From a bacterium (GTDB lineage: Bacteria; SZUA-79; Acidulodesulfobacterales; Acidulodesulfobacteraceae): a stretch of 49,395 bases of DNA. Below the pieces are notes generated by a model. It worked only from the letters and a program-made list of their open reading frames with translations, ran no database searches and had not been told where the DNA came from. The position numbers and the translations under genes are program-made. Where the stretch lies: positions 607-50,001 of the forward strand of contig QIJE01000007.1 of the NCBI GenBank assembly GCA_003232385.1. The letters run 5' to 3'. Positions 4,914 through 30,849 of this stretch are shown piece by piece (positions within the stretch are counted from its first letter, which is position 1; every line of letters starts with the position of its first letter).

Positions 4914-5771
4914 TTACTTTAGGATATCCCTTGCAAAATTAGGCAAAACAAACGACGAAGCATGTATTTCGGGGGAATAATATTTAAAATTATGCCTGTC
5001 GAAATCAAAACCCTTATAGCTTTCATTGATAATTTTCGGATCGTATTTTTTGGAACCGATGGTAAAACTCCACAAGCCGCCGGGATAAATGGGAACGTTT
5101 GCGCAATAAAGGGATGATTTTTCATATATTTCGTTTATAATTTTGCCTATGTTTTTTATTAAATCTTCATTAAAAAAAGGAGATTCGGTTTGCGCCGCAA
5201 AAATTCCGTCATTCTTTAACGACCCCGCGACGGATTCGTAAAAATCTCTCCTGAATAAACCCTCGGCAAAACCGATTGGGTCGGTAGAATCGACAAGTAT
5301 TACATCGTATTTTTCGTCTTCCCGGTCGCTTAATTTTATCCTTTTCACAAACTCTATTCCGTCTTCGGGGATAATTTTTACTCGTTTATCTTCTAATCCG
5401 AAGGCTACTTCCGGAAAAAACTTTTTAGATACCTCAATGACCCTCTTATCTATCTCTACAAGGTCGATATGATTAACGAACGGATTTTTCAAGCACTCCC
5501 TGATCACGCCCCCGTCGCCACCCCCGATGATAAGGATCTTTTCCGGTTTCTCATGGGCGAATAAAGGGACAAGCCCGAGCATCTCATGATAAACAAACTC
5601 ATTTTTTTCGGTAAACATAGTAGCTTTATCCAATACAAGCATCTTTCCGAACTCAAAAGTATCATATACCGCTATTTCCTGATAATCGGAAAATTCACAA
5701 TGTAAAATAGATTTAATACGAATTCTTATTCCGAAATCATCGGTTTGATCCTCTAAAAACCATGCCTCCAT
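4914..5771 (-). CDS. speE: Spermidine synthase (polyamine aminopropyltransferase)
   Basis: Transfers an aminopropyl group from decarboxylated S-adenosylmethionine to putrescine, giving spermidine and methylthioadenosine. The 285-residue protein has the N-terminal beta domain with YQEIAVYDT and MLVLDKATMFTEKNEFVYHEM, the nucleotide-binding GGGDGG (about 83-88), LVEID, and the catalytic-loop VDSTDP. I use the ATG at 5771; a TTG directly before it (5774) shares the same AAGGAGAA ribosome site. It is the first of the three polyamine genes, 58 bases after the HIT gene. The decarboxylase that makes its donor (speD) is not in this window. metK, which makes S-adenosylmethionine, is about 27 kb away. 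Confidence 0.93.
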   Translation of the reverse strand: MEAWFLEDQTDDFGIRIRIKSILHCEFSDYQEIAVYDTFEFGKMLVLDKATMFTEKNEFVYHEMLGLVPLFAHEKPEKILIIGGGDGGVIRECLKNPFVNHIDLVEIDKRVIEVSKKFFPEVAFGLEDKRVKIIPEDGIEFVKRIKLSDREDEKYDVILVDSTDPIGFAEGLFRRDFYESVAGSLKNDGIFAAQTESPFFNEDLIKNIGKIINEIYEKSSLYCANVPIYPGGLWSFTIGSKKYDPKIINESYKGFDFDRHNFKYYSPEIHASSFVLPNFARDILK

Positions 5772-5829
5772 CAACTCAGTTCTCCTTATATATATTTTAT
5801 TTATAGTTATTATTGTCAGATATTGTTTA

Positions 5830-6183
5830 TTAACCCGGCGGCCACGTGAACCGCCTGCCCGACATAAAATGAATATGCATATGATCTACCGTTTGACCGC
5901 CGTCTTCCTTTGTATTTATTACAACCCTAAAGCCTCTGTCGACGGCATTAAACTCGACGGCAAGTTCTCCGCATAAACCGAATATCTCATTTCCGTATAT
6001 TTCTCCCTCGCCTTTGACGTCGAGAAGGCTATTATAGTGCCTTTTGGAAATTATTAAAAGATGAATAGGCGAAACGGGGTTAATATCCTTTATTACTATA
6101 AAATTACCGGTTTCTTTTACTATATCCGCCGGTATTTCTTTGTCGACTATTTTACAAAAAATGCAATCATTCGCATTATGCAT
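5830..6183 (-). CDS. HIT (histidine triad) family hydrolase, HinT-like
   Basis: A 117-residue HIT-domain protein, the usual length for HinT-type purine nucleoside phosphoramidate or adenylyl hydrolases. It begins with the zinc-type CIFC motif (residues 7-10) followed by KIVDKEIPAD, and ends with the catalytic triad DHMHIHF, in which His101, His103 and His105 form the HxHxH pattern. The substrate in the cell is not known for most members. It lies at the head of the polyamine operon on the same strand, 58 bases from speE, and is divergent from the kinase gene at 6318. Whether it takes part in polyamine metabolism or only shares the promoter is not visible. Confidence 0.9.
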   Translation of the reverse strand: MHNANDCIFCKIVDKEIPADIVKETGNFIVIKDINPVSPIHLLIISKRHYNSLLDVKGEGEIYGNEIFGLCGELAVEFNAVDRGFRVVINTKEDGGQTVDHMHIHFMSGRRFTWPPG

Positions 6184-6317: not shown

Positions 6318-7376
6318 ATGACGGACACTGACAATTTAATACTGAATAATTTGAATTATTCTTTAATTTTATTCGACGAAAATTTGATTTTGAGGTTTTT
6401 AAACCTTCCGGCGCAGGAACTTACCGGATATTCCGATAGATTTTTAAATACTATTACCTTGGACCGCTTTTTTGGCAACAACGCCTACATAGAAGGAAAG
6501 GTGAGGACCGCAATAAATACCGGCGAGGGGTTCATAGATTTTGAATATAAATTTACAAATAAAAATAGGAGTAAATTCGTTATCCTGGAAGTATCAAAGA
6601 TTGTCTATGGAGCAACATTTTACATTTTGATATCCCTGAAGGATATAACGAGGTTTAAAGAAATGGACCACCATATCAAAGACGAGGAAAGAATAGAAGA
6701 CCTGTCGAGATTTATAGCCGAAATGTCGCATGAAATAAGAAATCCCCTTGGCGGGATTAAGGCCTCCGCCGCTTATTTAAAAAGAAAGTTCAATCAGCCG
6801 GATTTAAATGATTTTTTAGAGATAATAATAAAGGAATCCACCAGAATTAACGACCTTATAGAAAATCTTCTTGATCTATCCAAAAAACACAGAATAAAAA
6901 CATCTCCCGTCAATATAAACAAAGCGATTAATGAAATAATCATTATGGAGCAGGTTAAGTTATCTGAAAAGAATATCGAGATTATAAAAGAATTCGACCC
7001 GAGTCTTCCCTTGATTTATGCGTCGGAAAACGCCTTGAGGCAAGTCTTTTTGAATATGATAAAAAATTCCGGCTTTGCAATAAAAAAGCATAACGGGGGG
7101 GTGGTAAAGATAGTAACCAAATTGGATTATACCAGAAATAATCCCAAATTTATAAAAATAGAATTCATAGATAACGGATGCGGAATAAGCAAAAAAGATA
7201 TTAAAAATATATTTGTTCCGTTTTTTACCACCAAAGAAAAGGGAAGCGGCTTAGGGCTTGCCGTAAGCCAAAAAATAATACATGAACACGGCGGTTTTAT
7301 TAATATAGACTCGGTTAAAAACAGAGGTACCACGGTTTCGATATATATTCCCATCGAAAAATCCAAGCTGAATTAA
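6318..7376 (+). CDS. Soluble PAS-domain sensor histidine kinase, NtrB-like
   Basis: A 352-residue kinase without membrane segments, so cytoplasmic. A PAS domain covers about residues 8-115. The phosphoacceptor helix follows, with SHEIRNPLGG and His138; the NPLGGIKA context is that of NtrB/GlnL kinases. The ATPase domain has the N box NMIKNSG, the G1 box DNGCGI and the G2 box GSGLGLA. It should autophosphorylate on His138 and pass the phosphate to a receiver, but no response regulator lies next to it, so it is an orphan here. NtrX is 13 kb away and PII 11 kb away. A run of seven G bases in the coding region (7095-7101) is prone to slippage. The ATG at 6318 has only a weak ribosome site. Confidence 0.88.
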   Translation: MTDTDNLILNNLNYSLILFDENLILRFLNLPAQELTGYSDRFLNTITLDRFFGNNAYIEGKVRTAINTGEGFIDFEYKFTNKNRSKFVILEVSKIVYGATFYILISLKDITRFKEMDHHIKDEERIEDLSRFIAEMSHEIRNPLGGIKASAAYLKRKFNQPDLNDFLEIIIKESTRINDLIENLLDLSKKHRIKTSPVNINKAINEIIIMEQVKLSEKNIEIIKEFDPSLPLIYASENALRQVFLNMIKNSGFAIKKHNGGVVKIVTKLDYTRNNPKFIKIEFIDNGCGISKKDIKNIFVPFFTTKEKGSGLGLAVSQKIIHEHGGFINIDSVKNRGTTVSIYIPIEKSKLN

Positions 7377-7395
7377 ATTGAAACCGATGCCGTGA

Positions 7396-7809
7396 CTAAG
7401 ATATATTTTTGAGCAAAAACGATAAATCTATGATATTAAAATGGATAAGGGCCTCAATAACGGCAATTAAGAATAATATAATCAAAATTACAAGGGTTAT
7501 TATCTGTAACGAATTAATCTTCCCCTTTTCCTTGTTATCCTTTGCCGTAACAGCTTCGTCTTTTGCAACAGCGGCGTTTATTTCTGATGCAGCCGATTGC
7601 GCAGCATCATTCTCATTATCGCTTTTTTCTCCTGAAACAGGCTCTTTTCCCGAATCAGGTCTTTCTTTTACCGCTCCAGTATTTTTATTAATAACAAATA
7701 CATTCGAACATACCCTGCACCTTGCCTTAACATCGTTATACGGCAGCGCAGATACATCTATATCGTAAGGAGTACCGCAAAAAGGACAATAAATATGCAT
7801 ACTGTTCAT
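7396..7809 (-). CDS. MJ0042-type zinc-ribbon protein with C-terminal membrane anchor
   Basis: A 137-residue protein. The N-terminal zinc ribbon has CPFCG and CRVC (Cys8, Cys11, Cys31, Cys34), matching the MJ0042/zinc-ribbon family frequent in Deltaproteobacteria and Myxococci. A low-complexity linker rich in Ala, Glu, Asp and Lys covers about residues 42-98. A single transmembrane helix (about 104-126) ends the chain, which would put the ribbon in the cytoplasm if the tail is inserted. The role of the family is not established. The ATG at 7809 has GAGG eight bases upstream. The gene is convergent with the kinase at 6318 (19 bases apart) and carries a 22-base palindrome just upstream. Confidence 0.75.
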   Translation of the reverse strand: MNSMHIYCPFCGTPYDIDVSALPYNDVKARCRVCSNVFVINKNTGAVKERPDSGKEPVSGEKSDNENDAAQSAASEINAAVAKDEAVTAKDNKEKGKINSLQIITLVILIILFLIAVIEALIHFNIIDLSFLLKNIS

Positions 7810-25867: not shown

Positions 25868-26959
25868 TTATTGCCTTAGAAATGCCTTCGTATATAATAT
25901 AATTCCCAAAACGACAAGGAATAAATCCGCCCCCCATGTGCCTATAAAGGGATTAACCTGATTTCTGAGCGACAGATAAAACCCGGACGTAAATAAAACA
26001 TAGTAGATTACAACAATAATTATCGTATAGAAAATTGCAAGAAACAAGCTTCTTTTCTCTATAAGCATGCCGAGTGGCAGTCCTATGAATACGAACAATA
26101 AAGCAGCTATCGGAATAGCAATCTTTTTATACATATACACAAGATACATACTTTTTAATTTATGGTTATGTTCGGAAAGATATCTCCTCGTAAGTTGAGG
26201 AAACGTCAAGAAATGAACCGAGCTGTTTTTCCCCGGAAAAGATAGCCCCCTCAATTTAATGTTTATCTTATAGTCATCAAAATGCAATATCCAGAAATTT
26301 TTAGAATATGGATTTTGGTTTTGAATAATTCCGTTCTTTAAATAAAGAGATAAGGTATTTTGTTTTTGATTATACGTTATAACACCCCTTTTAGCGATTA
26401 ACGTCTCGGGTTCATTACCCACCTTATTCAATATAAAAATACCCTTAAGGGTATTTTTATTTGTATTGACATCCTTAACAAAAATCCTCAAATTTCCAAA
26501 TCTATCGGTAAACATATTTTTTTTTAATGCCGAAAGCGCCGCATTCTTAACCTCTTTTACCGCAAGCACCCTAAAAAAAAAGTTAAATCTCGGGGCCATA
26601 TAAAAAGAAAAAAAAATGGAGATAGACAGCGGTATTAAAGCAAAAATAATAACGGGTTTGGTAAGCTTAAACATACTTACGCCGGAAGCCGTTAACGCCG
26701 CAATCTCGTTGTCTTGAGTCATCTTGCCGAAAACCGCCAACACGGCAAGCAAGAAAGAGATCGGAAGGGTTATTATCATAAAATCCGGTATCGTCAAGCT
26801 TGCAAGTTTCAATACCGCCAAAACGCTTATGCCCTCGTTAAGGACCATCTGAGTCAGCAGCAGGATACGATTGATCGTAACGCTGAAAGTAAAAATCAAA
26901 AGCCCGAAAATAAATGGGAAAATCATCTGTTTAAATATATATCTGTCGATTGTCGACAT
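25868..26959 (-). CDS. lptF: LPS export permease LptF (YjgP/YjgQ family)
   Basis: Partner of LptG in the LPS exporter. The 363-residue protein starts with IDRYIFKQMIFPFIFG, the family's N-terminal helix, and includes LASLTIPDFMIITLPISFLLA and NEIAALTASGVSM, where the coupling helix touches the ATPase LptB. A periplasmic beta-jellyroll separates two sets of three helices. It heads the lptF-lptG pair and is divergent from the receiver gene at 27146. LptB, LptC and LptA are encoded about 10 kb to the right, so most of the inner-membrane and periplasmic export machinery is in this window. Confidence 0.88.
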   Translation of the reverse strand: MSTIDRYIFKQMIFPFIFGLLIFTFSVTINRILLLTQMVLNEGISVLAVLKLASLTIPDFMIITLPISFLLAVLAVFGKMTQDNEIAALTASGVSMFKLTKPVIIFALIPLSISIFFSFYMAPRFNFFFRVLAVKEVKNAALSALKKNMFTDRFGNLRIFVKDVNTNKNTLKGIFILNKVGNEPETLIAKRGVITYNQKQNTLSLYLKNGIIQNQNPYSKNFWILHFDDYKINIKLRGLSFPGKNSSVHFLTFPQLTRRYLSEHNHKLKSMYLVYMYKKIAIPIAALLFVFIGLPLGMLIEKRSLFLAIFYTIIIVVIYYVLFTSGFYLSLRNQVNPFIGTWGADLFLVVLGIILYTKAFLRQ

Positions 26960-27145: not shown

Positions 27146-28297
27146 ATGGTACACGATTTAGTTTTTATAGATGATAGCGAAGCGATGCAGAGGGCGGTAT
27201 CCACCATATTTCTCAGTAATCAGGAATTTAAATTAGACATGATTAGCGAGCCGTCAATGCTGTTAAACGAGACGGAAAAATCTGCGCCGGACTTAATTAT
27301 ACTAAATTACGACACGATTAACACGGAATTAAAAAAAAATATTGTAGAGATCAAAAACAGCGATAATTTCTCAGATACCCCGCTTCTATTATTAGTGCCT
27401 TCGGATTTATCGGACAAAGAAAGAGAATCTCTCATAGAGCTTAAAGCCGACGGCTTCATATATAGGCCATTCGATAAAAACTCGTTTATTTCTAAGATAA
27501 AAAGGACGATAAGTGCTAAAATCCGTAATAAAAAAGAGGTGAAGACAGGGGAAAAGATATACGACATTTCATCATTTGAGGTTGAAACCAATACCGAGAC
27601 ATCATCCGAACCGCCTTCTACCGCCGATGCGACTTTAACGAATCCATCTGCGGAAGCCGCATCGGGAGAATCGGAAGATTCATACAATGCCGACGATCGG
27701 ACAGATACAAATTCTTCGGAACTGAGTCAGGCTTTCGAGAATCTTTTTAAAGACGATGCGATATTCAAGGAATTTAAGGAACTTAATAAAAAAGAATCCG
27801 ATTCTCAAGTTTCCTCTGCCAACGCCATGCCGGAAACGCAGCCGGCGGGCGAATCCATTGTGCCCGCTAACTCCGAGAGCCCTTCGGAAAAGATTGAACT
27901 TACCGAAAATATTGCAAAAAACTTGGAATCGGAAAATTCTATCGACATTAATCATACCTTGGACGACGATAAATCGGACGAACATCCCGAATCGGATATA
28001 CCCCTCAAACAGCAGGAAACGGCTGCACTGAGAGAGCCGGCTATGGAGGATAAATCCGTTGCACAACCTATTAGCGATGATAACGATAATATAAACGCAG
28101 ATAATCATAAAGGAGAATTAAATTTGAAAATCTTAGATGAGCAAGATTTAGTTAAATTAGACGATTATTTAAGGGATGCGATAGAAAAAACTCTTGAGGA
28201 AGTTAAGCCTCGGATAGTGGAGAGCATAAAAAATACCATGCCGGATATTATAGAAAAACTCGTTAAAGAAGAAATAGAAAAAATTAAGCAACAATAA
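27146..28297 (+). CDS. Degenerate receiver-domain protein with acidic linker and PopZ-like C-terminal helices
   Basis: This is a 383-residue protein in three parts. Residues 1-125 are a CheY-like receiver with the acidic pair Asp9-Asp10, but the phosphoacceptor position in DLIILNYD is Asn54, and the usual Lys is Arg in YRPF, so it probably cannot be phosphorylated normally. Residues 130-325 are a disordered, Glu/Asp/Ser/Pro-rich linker. Residues 327-383 form amphipathic helices with VKPRIVESI...MPDIIEKLVKEEIEKI, which follow the pattern of the PopZ/DUF2497 oligomerisation tail. GGAGGG precedes the ATG. It is nine bases ahead of nadC and likely cotranscribed with it. A role in polar scaffolding or localisation is inference; I know no characterised homologue. 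Confidence 0.72.
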   Translation: MVHDLVFIDDSEAMQRAVSTIFLSNQEFKLDMISEPSMLLNETEKSAPDLIILNYDTINTELKKNIVEIKNSDNFSDTPLLLLVPSDLSDKERESLIELKADGFIYRPFDKNSFISKIKRTISAKIRNKKEVKTGEKIYDISSFEVETNTETSSEPPSTADATLTNPSAEAASGESEDSYNADDRTDTNSSELSQAFENLFKDDAIFKEFKELNKKESDSQVSSANAMPETQPAGESIVPANSESPSEKIELTENIAKNLESENSIDINHTLDDDKSDEHPESDIPLKQQETAALREPAMEDKSVAQPISDDNDNINADNHKGELNLKILDEQDLVKLDDYLRDAIEKTLEEVKPRIVESIKNTMPDIIEKLVKEEIEKIKQQ

Positions 28298-28306
28298 AGG
28301 AAAAAC

Positions 28307-29158
28307 ATGCGTATTTTTGAATCTCAGGTAAAACCGCTGATATACACGGCTCTAAATGAAGATATAAAAGGCGGCGACATTACGACCGATGCGCTCACAT
28401 TGAAAGACGACCCGATTGTACGATGTGAAGTTATAGCCAAAGAACAATCCGTAGTGTGCGGATTGCCTGTGTTTTCCATGGTTATAGATATGGTTTCGGG
28501 CGGCAATCATAAAATAGATTTTTTAGTTCGCGAAGGCGACTCGGTATCAAAATCTTGCAGCGTTATATCGTTTGAGGCAAAAGCAAGCGTAATACTTTAT
28601 GCCGAGAGAACCGCGCTTAATTTTCTCCAGCATTTATCCGGTATAGCAACGGCATCCGATATTGCCGCAAATGAACTTAGGGGGCTTAAAACTAAGGTAT
28701 TGGATACCAGAAAGACCGTTCCGGGTTTAAGAGTCCTTCAAAAATATGCGGTCAAAACGGGGGGCGGAGAAAATCACAGATTTGACCTGTCATCCGGAAT
28801 ACTCATAAAAGACAACCACATTAAGCTCGCGGGCGGAATAAAGAATGCCGTAAGTATGGTCAAGGCCTATCATTCGGGTTTGAATTTCAAGATAGAAATA
28901 GAAACGGCAAATCTTGACGAAGTTAAGGAGGCGTTAGACGCAAAGGCTGATGTAATAATGTTAGACAATATGGACCCCGATACAATGAGGGATGCCGTCT
29001 GCATCATAGACGGAAATGCCCTTACCGAGGCTTCCGGAAATATAAAAACGACTCAATTAAGAAGCATTGCCGAATTGACATGCGTAGATTATATTTCTAT
29101 GGGATGCCTGACCAACTCCGTTACGCCTGCCGATTTCTCATTAAATTTTATTATTTAG
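28307..29158 (+). CDS. nadC: Nicotinate-nucleotide pyrophosphorylase (carboxylating)
   Basis: Converts quinolinate and PRPP to nicotinate mononucleotide in de novo NAD synthesis. The 283-residue protein shows the quinolinate and PRPP site DTRKTVPGLRVLQKYAVKTGGGENHR near residue 138, IKDNHIK near 168, and the C-terminal MLDNM and IDGNALTEASGNI, the full NadC set. AAAGGA lies before the ATG. It sits between the pseudo-receiver gene and birA in a cofactor operon (NAD, biotin attachment, CoA). nadA and nadB are not in this window. Confidence 0.96.
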   Translation: MRIFESQVKPLIYTALNEDIKGGDITTDALTLKDDPIVRCEVIAKEQSVVCGLPVFSMVIDMVSGGNHKIDFLVREGDSVSKSCSVISFEAKASVILYAERTALNFLQHLSGIATASDIAANELRGLKTKVLDTRKTVPGLRVLQKYAVKTGGGENHRFDLSSGILIKDNHIKLAGGIKNAVSMVKAYHSGLNFKIEIETANLDEVKEALDAKADVIMLDNMDPDTMRDAVCIIDGNALTEASGNIKTTQLRSIAELTCVDYISMGCLTNSVTPADFSLNFII

Positions 29159-29247: not shown

Positions 29248-30060
29248 ATGGACGAAATAAAGAGCATTGATACCTCAGAAATTAAAAAGAGGCTTAAGGG
29301 CTATTTTGTAGAGAAAGACCTATATTATCAAAAGAAAGTTGATTCCACAAATACCATCGCCAGAAACTTGGTATCCAAGGGCGCAAAAAACGGAAGCGTA
29401 GTTATAGCAGATTGCCAGGAAAAGGGCAGGGGCAGAAACGGAAAGATATGGACGTCTCCATGTGGATGTAACATATATATGTCTATTATATTGAGACCTA
29501 AGTTTAACCCTGAAGCGGCGCAAGGAATGACTATTTTAGCCGCGGTTTCCGTTGCCGACGCAATAGCCGAGATTGCATCCTTAAAGCCTCAGATTAAATG
29601 GCCGAACGATGTCCTTATAGGCACAAAAAAGGTTTCCGGCATACTGACCGAGATGAGTACGCAAAATATGAATATAGAGTATATTATCGTCGGTATAGGA
29701 ATGAACGTCAACACCGAAGAAGAGGATATAAACGATAACATAAGGGATATCGCAACATCGCTTTTAATCGAGTCTAAAAAAATAAACGGTCAAACCGATC
29801 CCATCGATAGAAATAAACTTATAGCGTCTATTTTAAACAAGTTCGATAAATATTACGAAATGTTTTTATCTACGGGTTTATCGTCTATCCTTCACAACTA
29901 CCAAAAATACTTCGATATGATGGGTAAGACAATCAGAATAAATATTAAAGACAAAGATGTCGAGGGACAAGTTGTCGGTATTGATTCTAAAGGAGCCCTT
30001 CTTTTAAAAACCGGTGAAAATAAATTGGAGAAGGTTATCTCCGGCGAAATATATTTTTAA
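29248..30060 (+). CDS. birA: Biotin-[acetyl-CoA-carboxylase] ligase, HTH-less type
   Basis: Activates biotin to biotinyl-AMP and attaches it to carboxyl-carrier proteins. The 270-residue protein has the catalytic GRGRNGKIW (60-68), followed by the family's KWPNDVLIG with the lysine of KVSGILTE, and a C-terminal SH3-like domain with GQVVGIDSKGALLL. It starts directly with the catalytic domain, so it lacks the DNA-binding domain of E. coli BirA and should not repress biotin genes. It stands 89 bases after nadC, with an AT-rich gap that may hold a weak internal promoter, and 3 bases before coaX. Confidence 0.95.
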   Translation: MDEIKSIDTSEIKKRLKGYFVEKDLYYQKKVDSTNTIARNLVSKGAKNGSVVIADCQEKGRGRNGKIWTSPCGCNIYMSIILRPKFNPEAAQGMTILAAVSVADAIAEIASLKPQIKWPNDVLIGTKKVSGILTEMSTQNMNIEYIIVGIGMNVNTEEEDINDNIRDIATSLLIESKKINGQTDPIDRNKLIASILNKFDKYYEMFLSTGLSSILHNYQKYFDMMGKTIRINIKDKDVEGQVVGIDSKGALLLKTGENKLEKVISGEIYF

Positions 30061-30063
30061 AAT

Positions 30064-30849
30064 ATGCTATTAGCATGCGATATAGGTAATTCTTCCTCAA
30101 ATTTTGGAATATTCGATGAAAAAAACAATATAATTAAAACCTTCAAGGTAAGTACGGCAAAGATATCTTCCTTGAACGATTTAAAGAAACTTTTCGCCAA
30201 AAACTTTTCGCCAAAAGAGATAAGCAATGCCTCCATATCCTCGGTAGTTCCCTCGGCAGATCCGATATATAAAGAATTTTTCGATAAAACGAAAATTAAC
30301 TCTTTTTATATTTCATCTAAAATAAAGTTAAACATCCGAATTTGCTTAGAAAATAGCAACAAACTGGGTTCAGACAGGATAGCCAACGTAAGTTATGCCT
30401 TTTTTGCAGAACAAAAGTTTCATATAATAGTGGATTCCGGAACCGCTTTGACTATAGACGTAATGGATAAAAGGGGCTGTTTTCTCGGAGGAATCATTTT
30501 TCCGGGGCTTTCCATGCTAACGAATTCGCTTTATCAATCTACGGAAAAACTCCCGATAGTCGAAGCAACAAAAAAAAACATAAAAAAAATCGGCATAATA
30601 GGTACAAATACGGAGAATTCAATACTATCCGGAATATACTTCGGATATATCTACTCTATTAAGGGATTTATAGACAACATCTATAAATATTACAATTGCA
30701 AGCCGGAAGACACAAATATAATAATCACCGGCGGCAATTGTAATTTAATCTTTGATGCTTTGAACTTAAAATATCAAAACAGAATAGATAAGTTCTGGAC
30801 ACTTAAGGGAATCAAATATCTATACGATCTAAATATTAAAGACAAATAG
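30064..30849 (+). CDS. coaX: Type III pantothenate kinase
   Basis: Phosphorylates pantothenate in the first step of CoA synthesis. The 261-residue protein belongs to the ASKHA fold, with the phosphate loop CDIGNSSSNFGIF (4-16), the pantothenate region near LGSDRIANVSYAF, and DSGTALTIDVMD with GGIIFPGLSML, all diagnostic of CoaX. Type III enzymes use a monovalent cation and are not inhibited by CoA. It starts three bases after the stop of birA and closes the operon. It is convergent with ahcY, seven bases away. BirA-CoaX neighbours are common in bacteria. Confidence 0.95.
   Translation: MLLACDIGNSSSNFGIFDEKNNIIKTFKVSTAKISSLNDLKKLFAKNFSPKEISNASISSVVPSADPIYKEFFDKTKINSFYISSKIKLNIRICLENSNKLGSDRIANVSYAFFAEQKFHIIVDSGTALTIDVMDKRGCFLGGIIFPGLSMLTNSLYQSTEKLPIVEATKKNIKKIGIIGTNTENSILSGIYFGYIYSIKGFIDNIYKYYNCKPEDTNIIITGGNCNLIFDALNLKYQNRIDKFWTLKGIKYLYDLNIKDK

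Follow-up and report, generated by a model that had tools for sequence, protein, structure and literature searches.

A pseudo-receiver protein of the Acidulodesulfobacteraceae with RomR-type architecture and a C-terminal tail similar to that of PopZ

FrzS of Myxococcus xanthus is a polar motility protein with a receiver fold that works without normal phosphorylation, and it continues into a long coiled coil. RomR (MXAN_4461), studied in M. xanthus and Bdellovibrio, consists of a receiver, an unstructured linker and a helical, Glu-rich C-terminal region with an invariant Trp and Pro, and occurs in Myxococcales, Geobacter, Acidobacteria and other groups alongside MglA and MglB (PMC3441718). The tail of RomR forms oligomers (up to trimers), and polar localisation depends on it (PMC10329633, PMC3441718); RomR-C is described in PMC3441718 as not homologous to characterised domains, and its targeting to the pole is called unknown in PMC10329633. 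PopZ has been described as an alphaproteobacterial protein. Its C-terminal helices, modelled as trimers and hexamers, drive condensation and assembly, and an acidic intrinsically disordered region tunes condensation (PMC9512792, PMC9926476). PopZ and RomR have been studied as unrelated polar hubs, and in PMC11025332 helices 3-4 of PopZ are used as a recruitment tag on RomR.

The window analysed here, a whole stretch of 49,395 nucleotides from a genome of the Acidulodesulfobacteraceae, carries at 27146-28297 (+) a gene for a protein of 383 amino acids in which a pseudo-receiver is followed by an acidic disordered linker and a tail resembling those of PopZ and RomR-C. Its reading frame is uninterrupted, with a GGAGG Shine-Dalgarno sequence ~12 bases before the ATG. 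The gene is single-copy in this genome (1.54 Mb) and is represented by orthologues in most of the family's genomes; GenBank relatives of the genome include Candidatus Acididesulfobacter diazotrophicus (L045), and the order, Acidulodesulfobacterales, is one of acid mine drainage (PMC6776010). The conserved upstream neighbour is the divergent lptF (25868-26959, -). Downstream, nadC (28307-29158, +) begins after 9 bp and lies at the same place in every orthologous locus long enough to include it, followed by birA, encoding biotin-protein ligase (29248-30060, +), and, after a gap of 3 bp, by coaX, encoding type III pantothenate kinase (30064-30849, +). This order is kept in every genus examined, wherever the orthologous loci extend far enough, with a spacing of ~1-50 bp between the receiver-tail gene and nadC.

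Because of the two short gaps and the conserved order, the cotranscription that the original prediction had assumed seems plausible, with the receiver-tail gene and nadC-birA-coaX forming one operon; terminator and promoter scans of this AT-rich region barely differed from shuffled sequence or carried no information on the matter. What ties the gene to those for NAD, biotin and CoA is its position, and operon membership does not amount to a metabolic link. An operon so well conserved could nevertheless reflect a role in metabolism instead of in spatial organisation, so that the protein would be a local regulator of these genes or their enzymes, gathering or responding to them, and the pole would be irrelevant. 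We consider this quite improbable: operon location has little weight on its own, the Pfam search returned no DNA-binding domain, relatives elsewhere have other neighbours (purM/purN in the case of L122), and the receiver-tail protein, with ~40-55% identity, diverges much faster than the products of nadC or birA (60-80%).

The pseudo-receiver occupies residues 1-129 (27146-27532, +). The Pfam family Response_reg matches residues 7-118 with an E value of 9e-6, under the family cut-off, whereas AlphaFold2 confidently predicts a CheY fold for residues 1-130 and Foldseek matches receiver structures with TM-scores to the target of 0.8-0.9. The pseudo-receiver constitutes the likeness to FrzS, with 2i6f among these structural matches, and the long coiled coil that comes after the FrzS receiver constitutes the difference. 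In the alignment the acidic pair, D9 and D10, is kept, while N54, V84 and R107 replace the phosphoacceptor Asp, the switch Thr/Ser and the conserved Lys, respectively. The original prediction had taken the replacements at positions 54 and 107 as a loss of normal phosphorylation, and the survey of homologues extends this to the whole clade. The phosphoacceptor Asp is absent from all 26 receiver-bearing orthologues (13 Ser, 9 Asn, 4 Gly), each of which also has Arg at the Lys position and Val or Ala at the Thr/Ser position; the first acidic residue of the pair is retained in every one. An ordinary phosphorylated response regulator was consequently rejected on account of these three positions, the acidic pair notwithstanding.

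Conservation in the receiver of this clade is shifted to the beta4-alpha4 and beta5-alpha5 part, with 16 invariant positions out of 39 within residues 82-120 versus 6 out of 81 before them (Fisher p 2e-5), a pattern that would be expected of a constitutive docking surface. A tree of receivers recovers the clade as monophyletic (support 0.99) and places it closer to other receiver-tail proteins than to ordinary receivers of the same genome, with the proviso that deeper nodes are unsupported and branches long.

The linker, residues 134-325 (27545-28120, +), corresponds to the acidic, low-complexity middle that had been predicted: 25% of its residues are Asp or Glu, its net charge is -33 and Pro makes up 6%, and pLDDT falls below 50 at residues 144-188 and 219-326. 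Its length ranges from ~150 to 435 residues among orthologues, and that of the tail is steady at ~66-73. Two short motifs are conserved within it. Motif 1, K-I-Y-D-I-x-x-F-E (residues 137-145; 27554-27580, +), is kept even in an orthologue that has no receiver, and motif 2, SSELSQAFENLFKDDAIFKEFxxLNKK (~residues 189-216; 27710-27793, +), is predicted by AlphaFold2 as two short helices with a modest pLDDT of ~65.

The segment ELSQAFENLF of motif 2 has a counterpart, ELDxAF, in the linkers of L105, L115 and L174, which come from one other family, and both show a slight resemblance to the CheY-binding end of FliM. Of 57 linkers, 5 contain the pattern EL..[AL]F, where shuffling gives 1.0 on average and 5 at most, a marginal enrichment that makes a CheY-binding-like motif common to these linkers a lead only. 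A further peculiarity of disordered linkers is a WDLxEPEA-like repeat, with five copies each in L098 and L104.

The tail, residues 326-383 (28121-28294, +), is modelled as a helix at residues 332-382 (pLDDT 73-84). It is conserved in 25 orthologues, with P366 and E370 (tail positions 58 and 62) invariant in all of them. A family profile built with 20 tails from bacteria outside the clade finds the window's tail as its sole match in the genome (E 7e-8) and matches 57 genomes outside the clade, distributed over 44 families of the sample. A receiver is present in 53 of the 57 non-clade tail ORFs examined, the remaining four beginning at a contig end. Of 52 such receivers, 45 retain the phosphoacceptor Asp and seven have lost it (Ser, Asn or Ala), and the Lys is present in all 53.

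About half of the non-clade tails (29) contain the Trp of [IV]AWEVVPDLAE, and a Roadblock (MglB-type) protein is encoded in six of the seven tested genomes with tails of this Trp type versus 3 of 18 other tail genomes and none of the 22 clade genomes, where a Robl_LC7 search (E<=0.001) retrieved no Roadblock/LC7 protein of the MglB/MglC kind. Since Roadblock proteins are distributed in this way, the Trp-type proteins, which match the published description and stand in here for M. xanthus RomR itself, can very probably be equated with RomR, to which the window's protein would be an Mgl-less cousin. The likeness comprises the N-terminal receiver, the long unstructured linker and the Glu-rich helical tail with a conserved Pro.

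Two points of the original prediction have to be adjusted in this light. The architecture had been thought a new kind of hub, which does not hold, taking into account that RomR was already known (PMC10329633, PMC3441718) and that 53 relatives with receivers exist outside the clade. Similar tails had also been mentioned on deltaproteobacterial receivers, as lacking a known function; these very probably belong to the RomR-type family, and for its RomR members a function is known.

The same three-part architecture, together with the fact that the window's tail was found by a profile that includes Trp-containing, MglB-associated tails, could be taken to indicate a true RomR orthologue acting in an MglA/MglB-type polarity switch. 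In the strict sense this is refuted, and it retains only a very slight probability, given that the clade has lost the phosphorylation residues, that MglB/MglC-type proteins are missing from the 22 genomes searched, and that the Trp described as invariant in RomR-C (PMC3441718) is missing from all 25 clade tails. RomR proper was rejected as an identification for the last two reasons. One relative within the clade, moreover, departs from RomR by having no receiver at all.

Several members of the wider family show variations of their own. L111 contains two receiver-tail paralogues side by side (4991-6136 and 6492-7604) in one genome (G101). In L107 (G059:C23:3986-4609) the tail is tandemly duplicated, as two copies of ~55 amino acids (E 9e-17 and 8e-8 with a profile of the tail family), and L101 (G152) has a second Trp-containing repeat upstream of its tail. 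These natural duplications resemble the engineered pentavalent PopZ tail (PMC9512792).

The original prediction had also pointed to an amphipathic pattern in the tail resembling the oligomerisation end of PopZ; the tail does contain this pattern, and comparisons in both search directions, with decoys, bear the resemblance out. Among Pfam families, PF10691 (DUF2497, PopZ) ranks first for each of the 25 clade tails, which upholds the expected profile match in kind and not in degree, every score being sub-threshold (best E 3.6e-5): the whole window protein obtains 14.3 bits, its tail alone 18.4-18.6 and the best orthologue 23.4, for a cut-off of 27. When PF10691 was run over six-frame translations of 386 genomes, it gave zero matches above the curated cut-off and ten at E<=1e-3, every one of them on a tail of this type; seven lie in the window's clade, L122 and L124 have receivers, and L123 is cut by the start of its contig. 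A profile made with four PopZ tails from Alphaproteobacteria, searched against 2,913 ORFs, a set enriched for receiver-tail loci, placed receiver-tail proteins at ranks 2-58 with no other ORF between. Residues 1-134 of the PopZ query were confirmed against PDB 6xry and the rest by its PF10691 score, and PopZ sequences from database records were added in later tests.

Direct profile alignment with hhalign gave a probability of 92% and a score of 36.5 between PopZ and the clade's tails; 100 column shuffles scored at most 14.3 and the reversed profile scored 10.7. For PopZ and the tails of other bacteria the values were 95% and 40.7, with column shuffles of at most 15.1 and 15.2 for the reversed profile; an earlier "broad" profile had included two tails found with the PopZ model, which was partly circular, and these figures come from the repetition without both, that is, from a profile free of sequences found through that model. 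In the reverse direction, each of the two tail profiles ranked popZ first in a replicon of Sphingomonas (0.85 Mb), one of Sinorhizobium (3.7 Mb) and one of Shinella (4.6 Mb), with E values of 1.6e-4 to 0.067. Two database records that are labelled as plasmids, CP090106.1 and NZ_CP069303.1 (3.7 and 4.6 Mb), are probably mislabelled chromosomes, in which popZ adjoins the gene for valine-tRNA ligase.

What PopZ and the tails have in common is P-x10-P followed by P-x-[IVL][IV]E-x-x-[VI]-x-x-EI-x-[KR]-[IV], in the region of PopZ helices 3-4, to which P355-x10-P366-x-IIEKLVKEEIEKI of the window's protein aligns. The acidic disordered middle ahead of C-terminal oligomerisation helices is a further likeness to PopZ. 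As for the differences, the linker has 6% Pro and not the 23% reported for Caulobacterales PopZ, PopZ helix 2 is not recognisable, and the N-terminus is a receiver where PopZ has its client-binding helix, which was not found in the window's protein. Because the protein stays below the DUF2497 cut-off and is without that helix, it is not a PopZ, and PopZ proper was discarded as an identification. A search for PopZ relatives in viral contigs was without result.

These comparisons support a specific similarity between the tail and the C-terminal oligomerisation domain of PopZ, and homology between the two appears quite probable. The alternative is that the likeness is convergent, short acidic amphipathic helices having met the same physical demand, a C-terminal trimeric bundle, in which case the tail could still work as in PopZ. 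Some room for this is left by a short helical region of ~30-40 residues with a charged composition, by single scores that are weak and under curated cut-offs, and by L106, an unrelated ORF to which the clade's tail profile assigns E 5e-4, as good as PopZ in one direction. Even so, convergence seems unlikely: shuffled profiles, which keep composition, and reversed ones, which keep both composition and periodicity, score far lower; popZ heads the results of two tail profiles in three whole replicons; and PopZ and the tails share both prolines, the 11-residue spacing between them and the C-terminal position, with matches confined to one architecture. A functional likeness of the tail to that of PopZ is more likely still than homology.

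Reduced versions of the protein occur in two genomes. At the same locus, genome G002 (99% complete) encodes an orthologue of 86 amino acids (L116:5786-6043, -) made up of motif 1, in the form EIHDISEFE, a short linker and the tail. The divergent lptF lies only ~120 bp from this gene, which leaves no space for a receiver. Motif 2 is absent as well, and its presence seems tied to that of the receiver. Since this orthologue keeps only motif 1 and the tail, these can be regarded as the conserved core. It is a single case, and no second genome shows loss of the receiver. Separately, L124:1498-1986 (-), in genome G373, encodes a miniature of 163 amino acids in which a degenerate receiver is combined with the tail LEQWLRDQAPQYAKEVIREEITKLIG, a sequence that has DUF2497 as its best Pfam family (E 2.6e-4).

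Taking all of this together, the reading we prefer, with a probability of about 0.62, is that the window encodes a RomR-like hub independent of both Mgl proteins and phosphorylation, which would trimerise through a PopZ-type domain. Oligomerisation and polar localisation through the tail have been shown by others for its relatives, RomR-C and PopZ, and it is by analogy with them that we infer trimerisation, localisation, docking and clients here. The tail helices would form a trimer able to assemble further and would place the protein, probably at the cell pole, which is its likeliest location. The long acidic linker would space the assembly, keep it soluble and carry the two short docking motifs. 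The pseudo-receiver would be a constitutive docking module acting through its alpha4-beta5-alpha5 face, and it may, along with the linker motifs, bind clients with no phosphorylation switch. Such a hub would have no need of MglA/MglB/MglC, the polarity module served by RomR. The genome encodes type IV pilus/secretion ATPases and 18 ordinary receivers, and these are only candidates as clients.

The protein is a variant of a scaffold type already known, and the new, testable point is the link between RomR-type tails and PopZ. No comparison of the two tails is contained in the available passages of PMC11025332, PMC3441718 and PMC10547168, and priority for the link is not certain. A broader proposal, which we favour slightly, is that PopZ and RomR share a homologous C-terminal oligomerisation domain, widespread (more than 40 families in the sample) and normally joined to a receiver. 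In the acidophile clade of the window this receiver would have become a constitutive docking domain and would have been lost in one lineage, resulting in a PopZ-like protein outside the Alphaproteobacteria composed of a short docking motif, a short linker and the tail.

If the shared domain is real, what is known about PopZ assembly could be put to a direct test in RomR and in dozens of receiver proteins that have yet to be studied, and assays in which PopZ helices serve for recruitment with RomR baits, as in PMC11025332, might cross-assemble. It would also suggest a common origin for two polarity systems. The tail that the window's protein has in common with RomR-type proteins points to a single common principle in the construction of protein hubs, and the loss of the phosphorylation site throughout the clade, together with that of the whole receiver in one genome, suggests that in these bacteria the function of the scaffold has been separated from signalling input.
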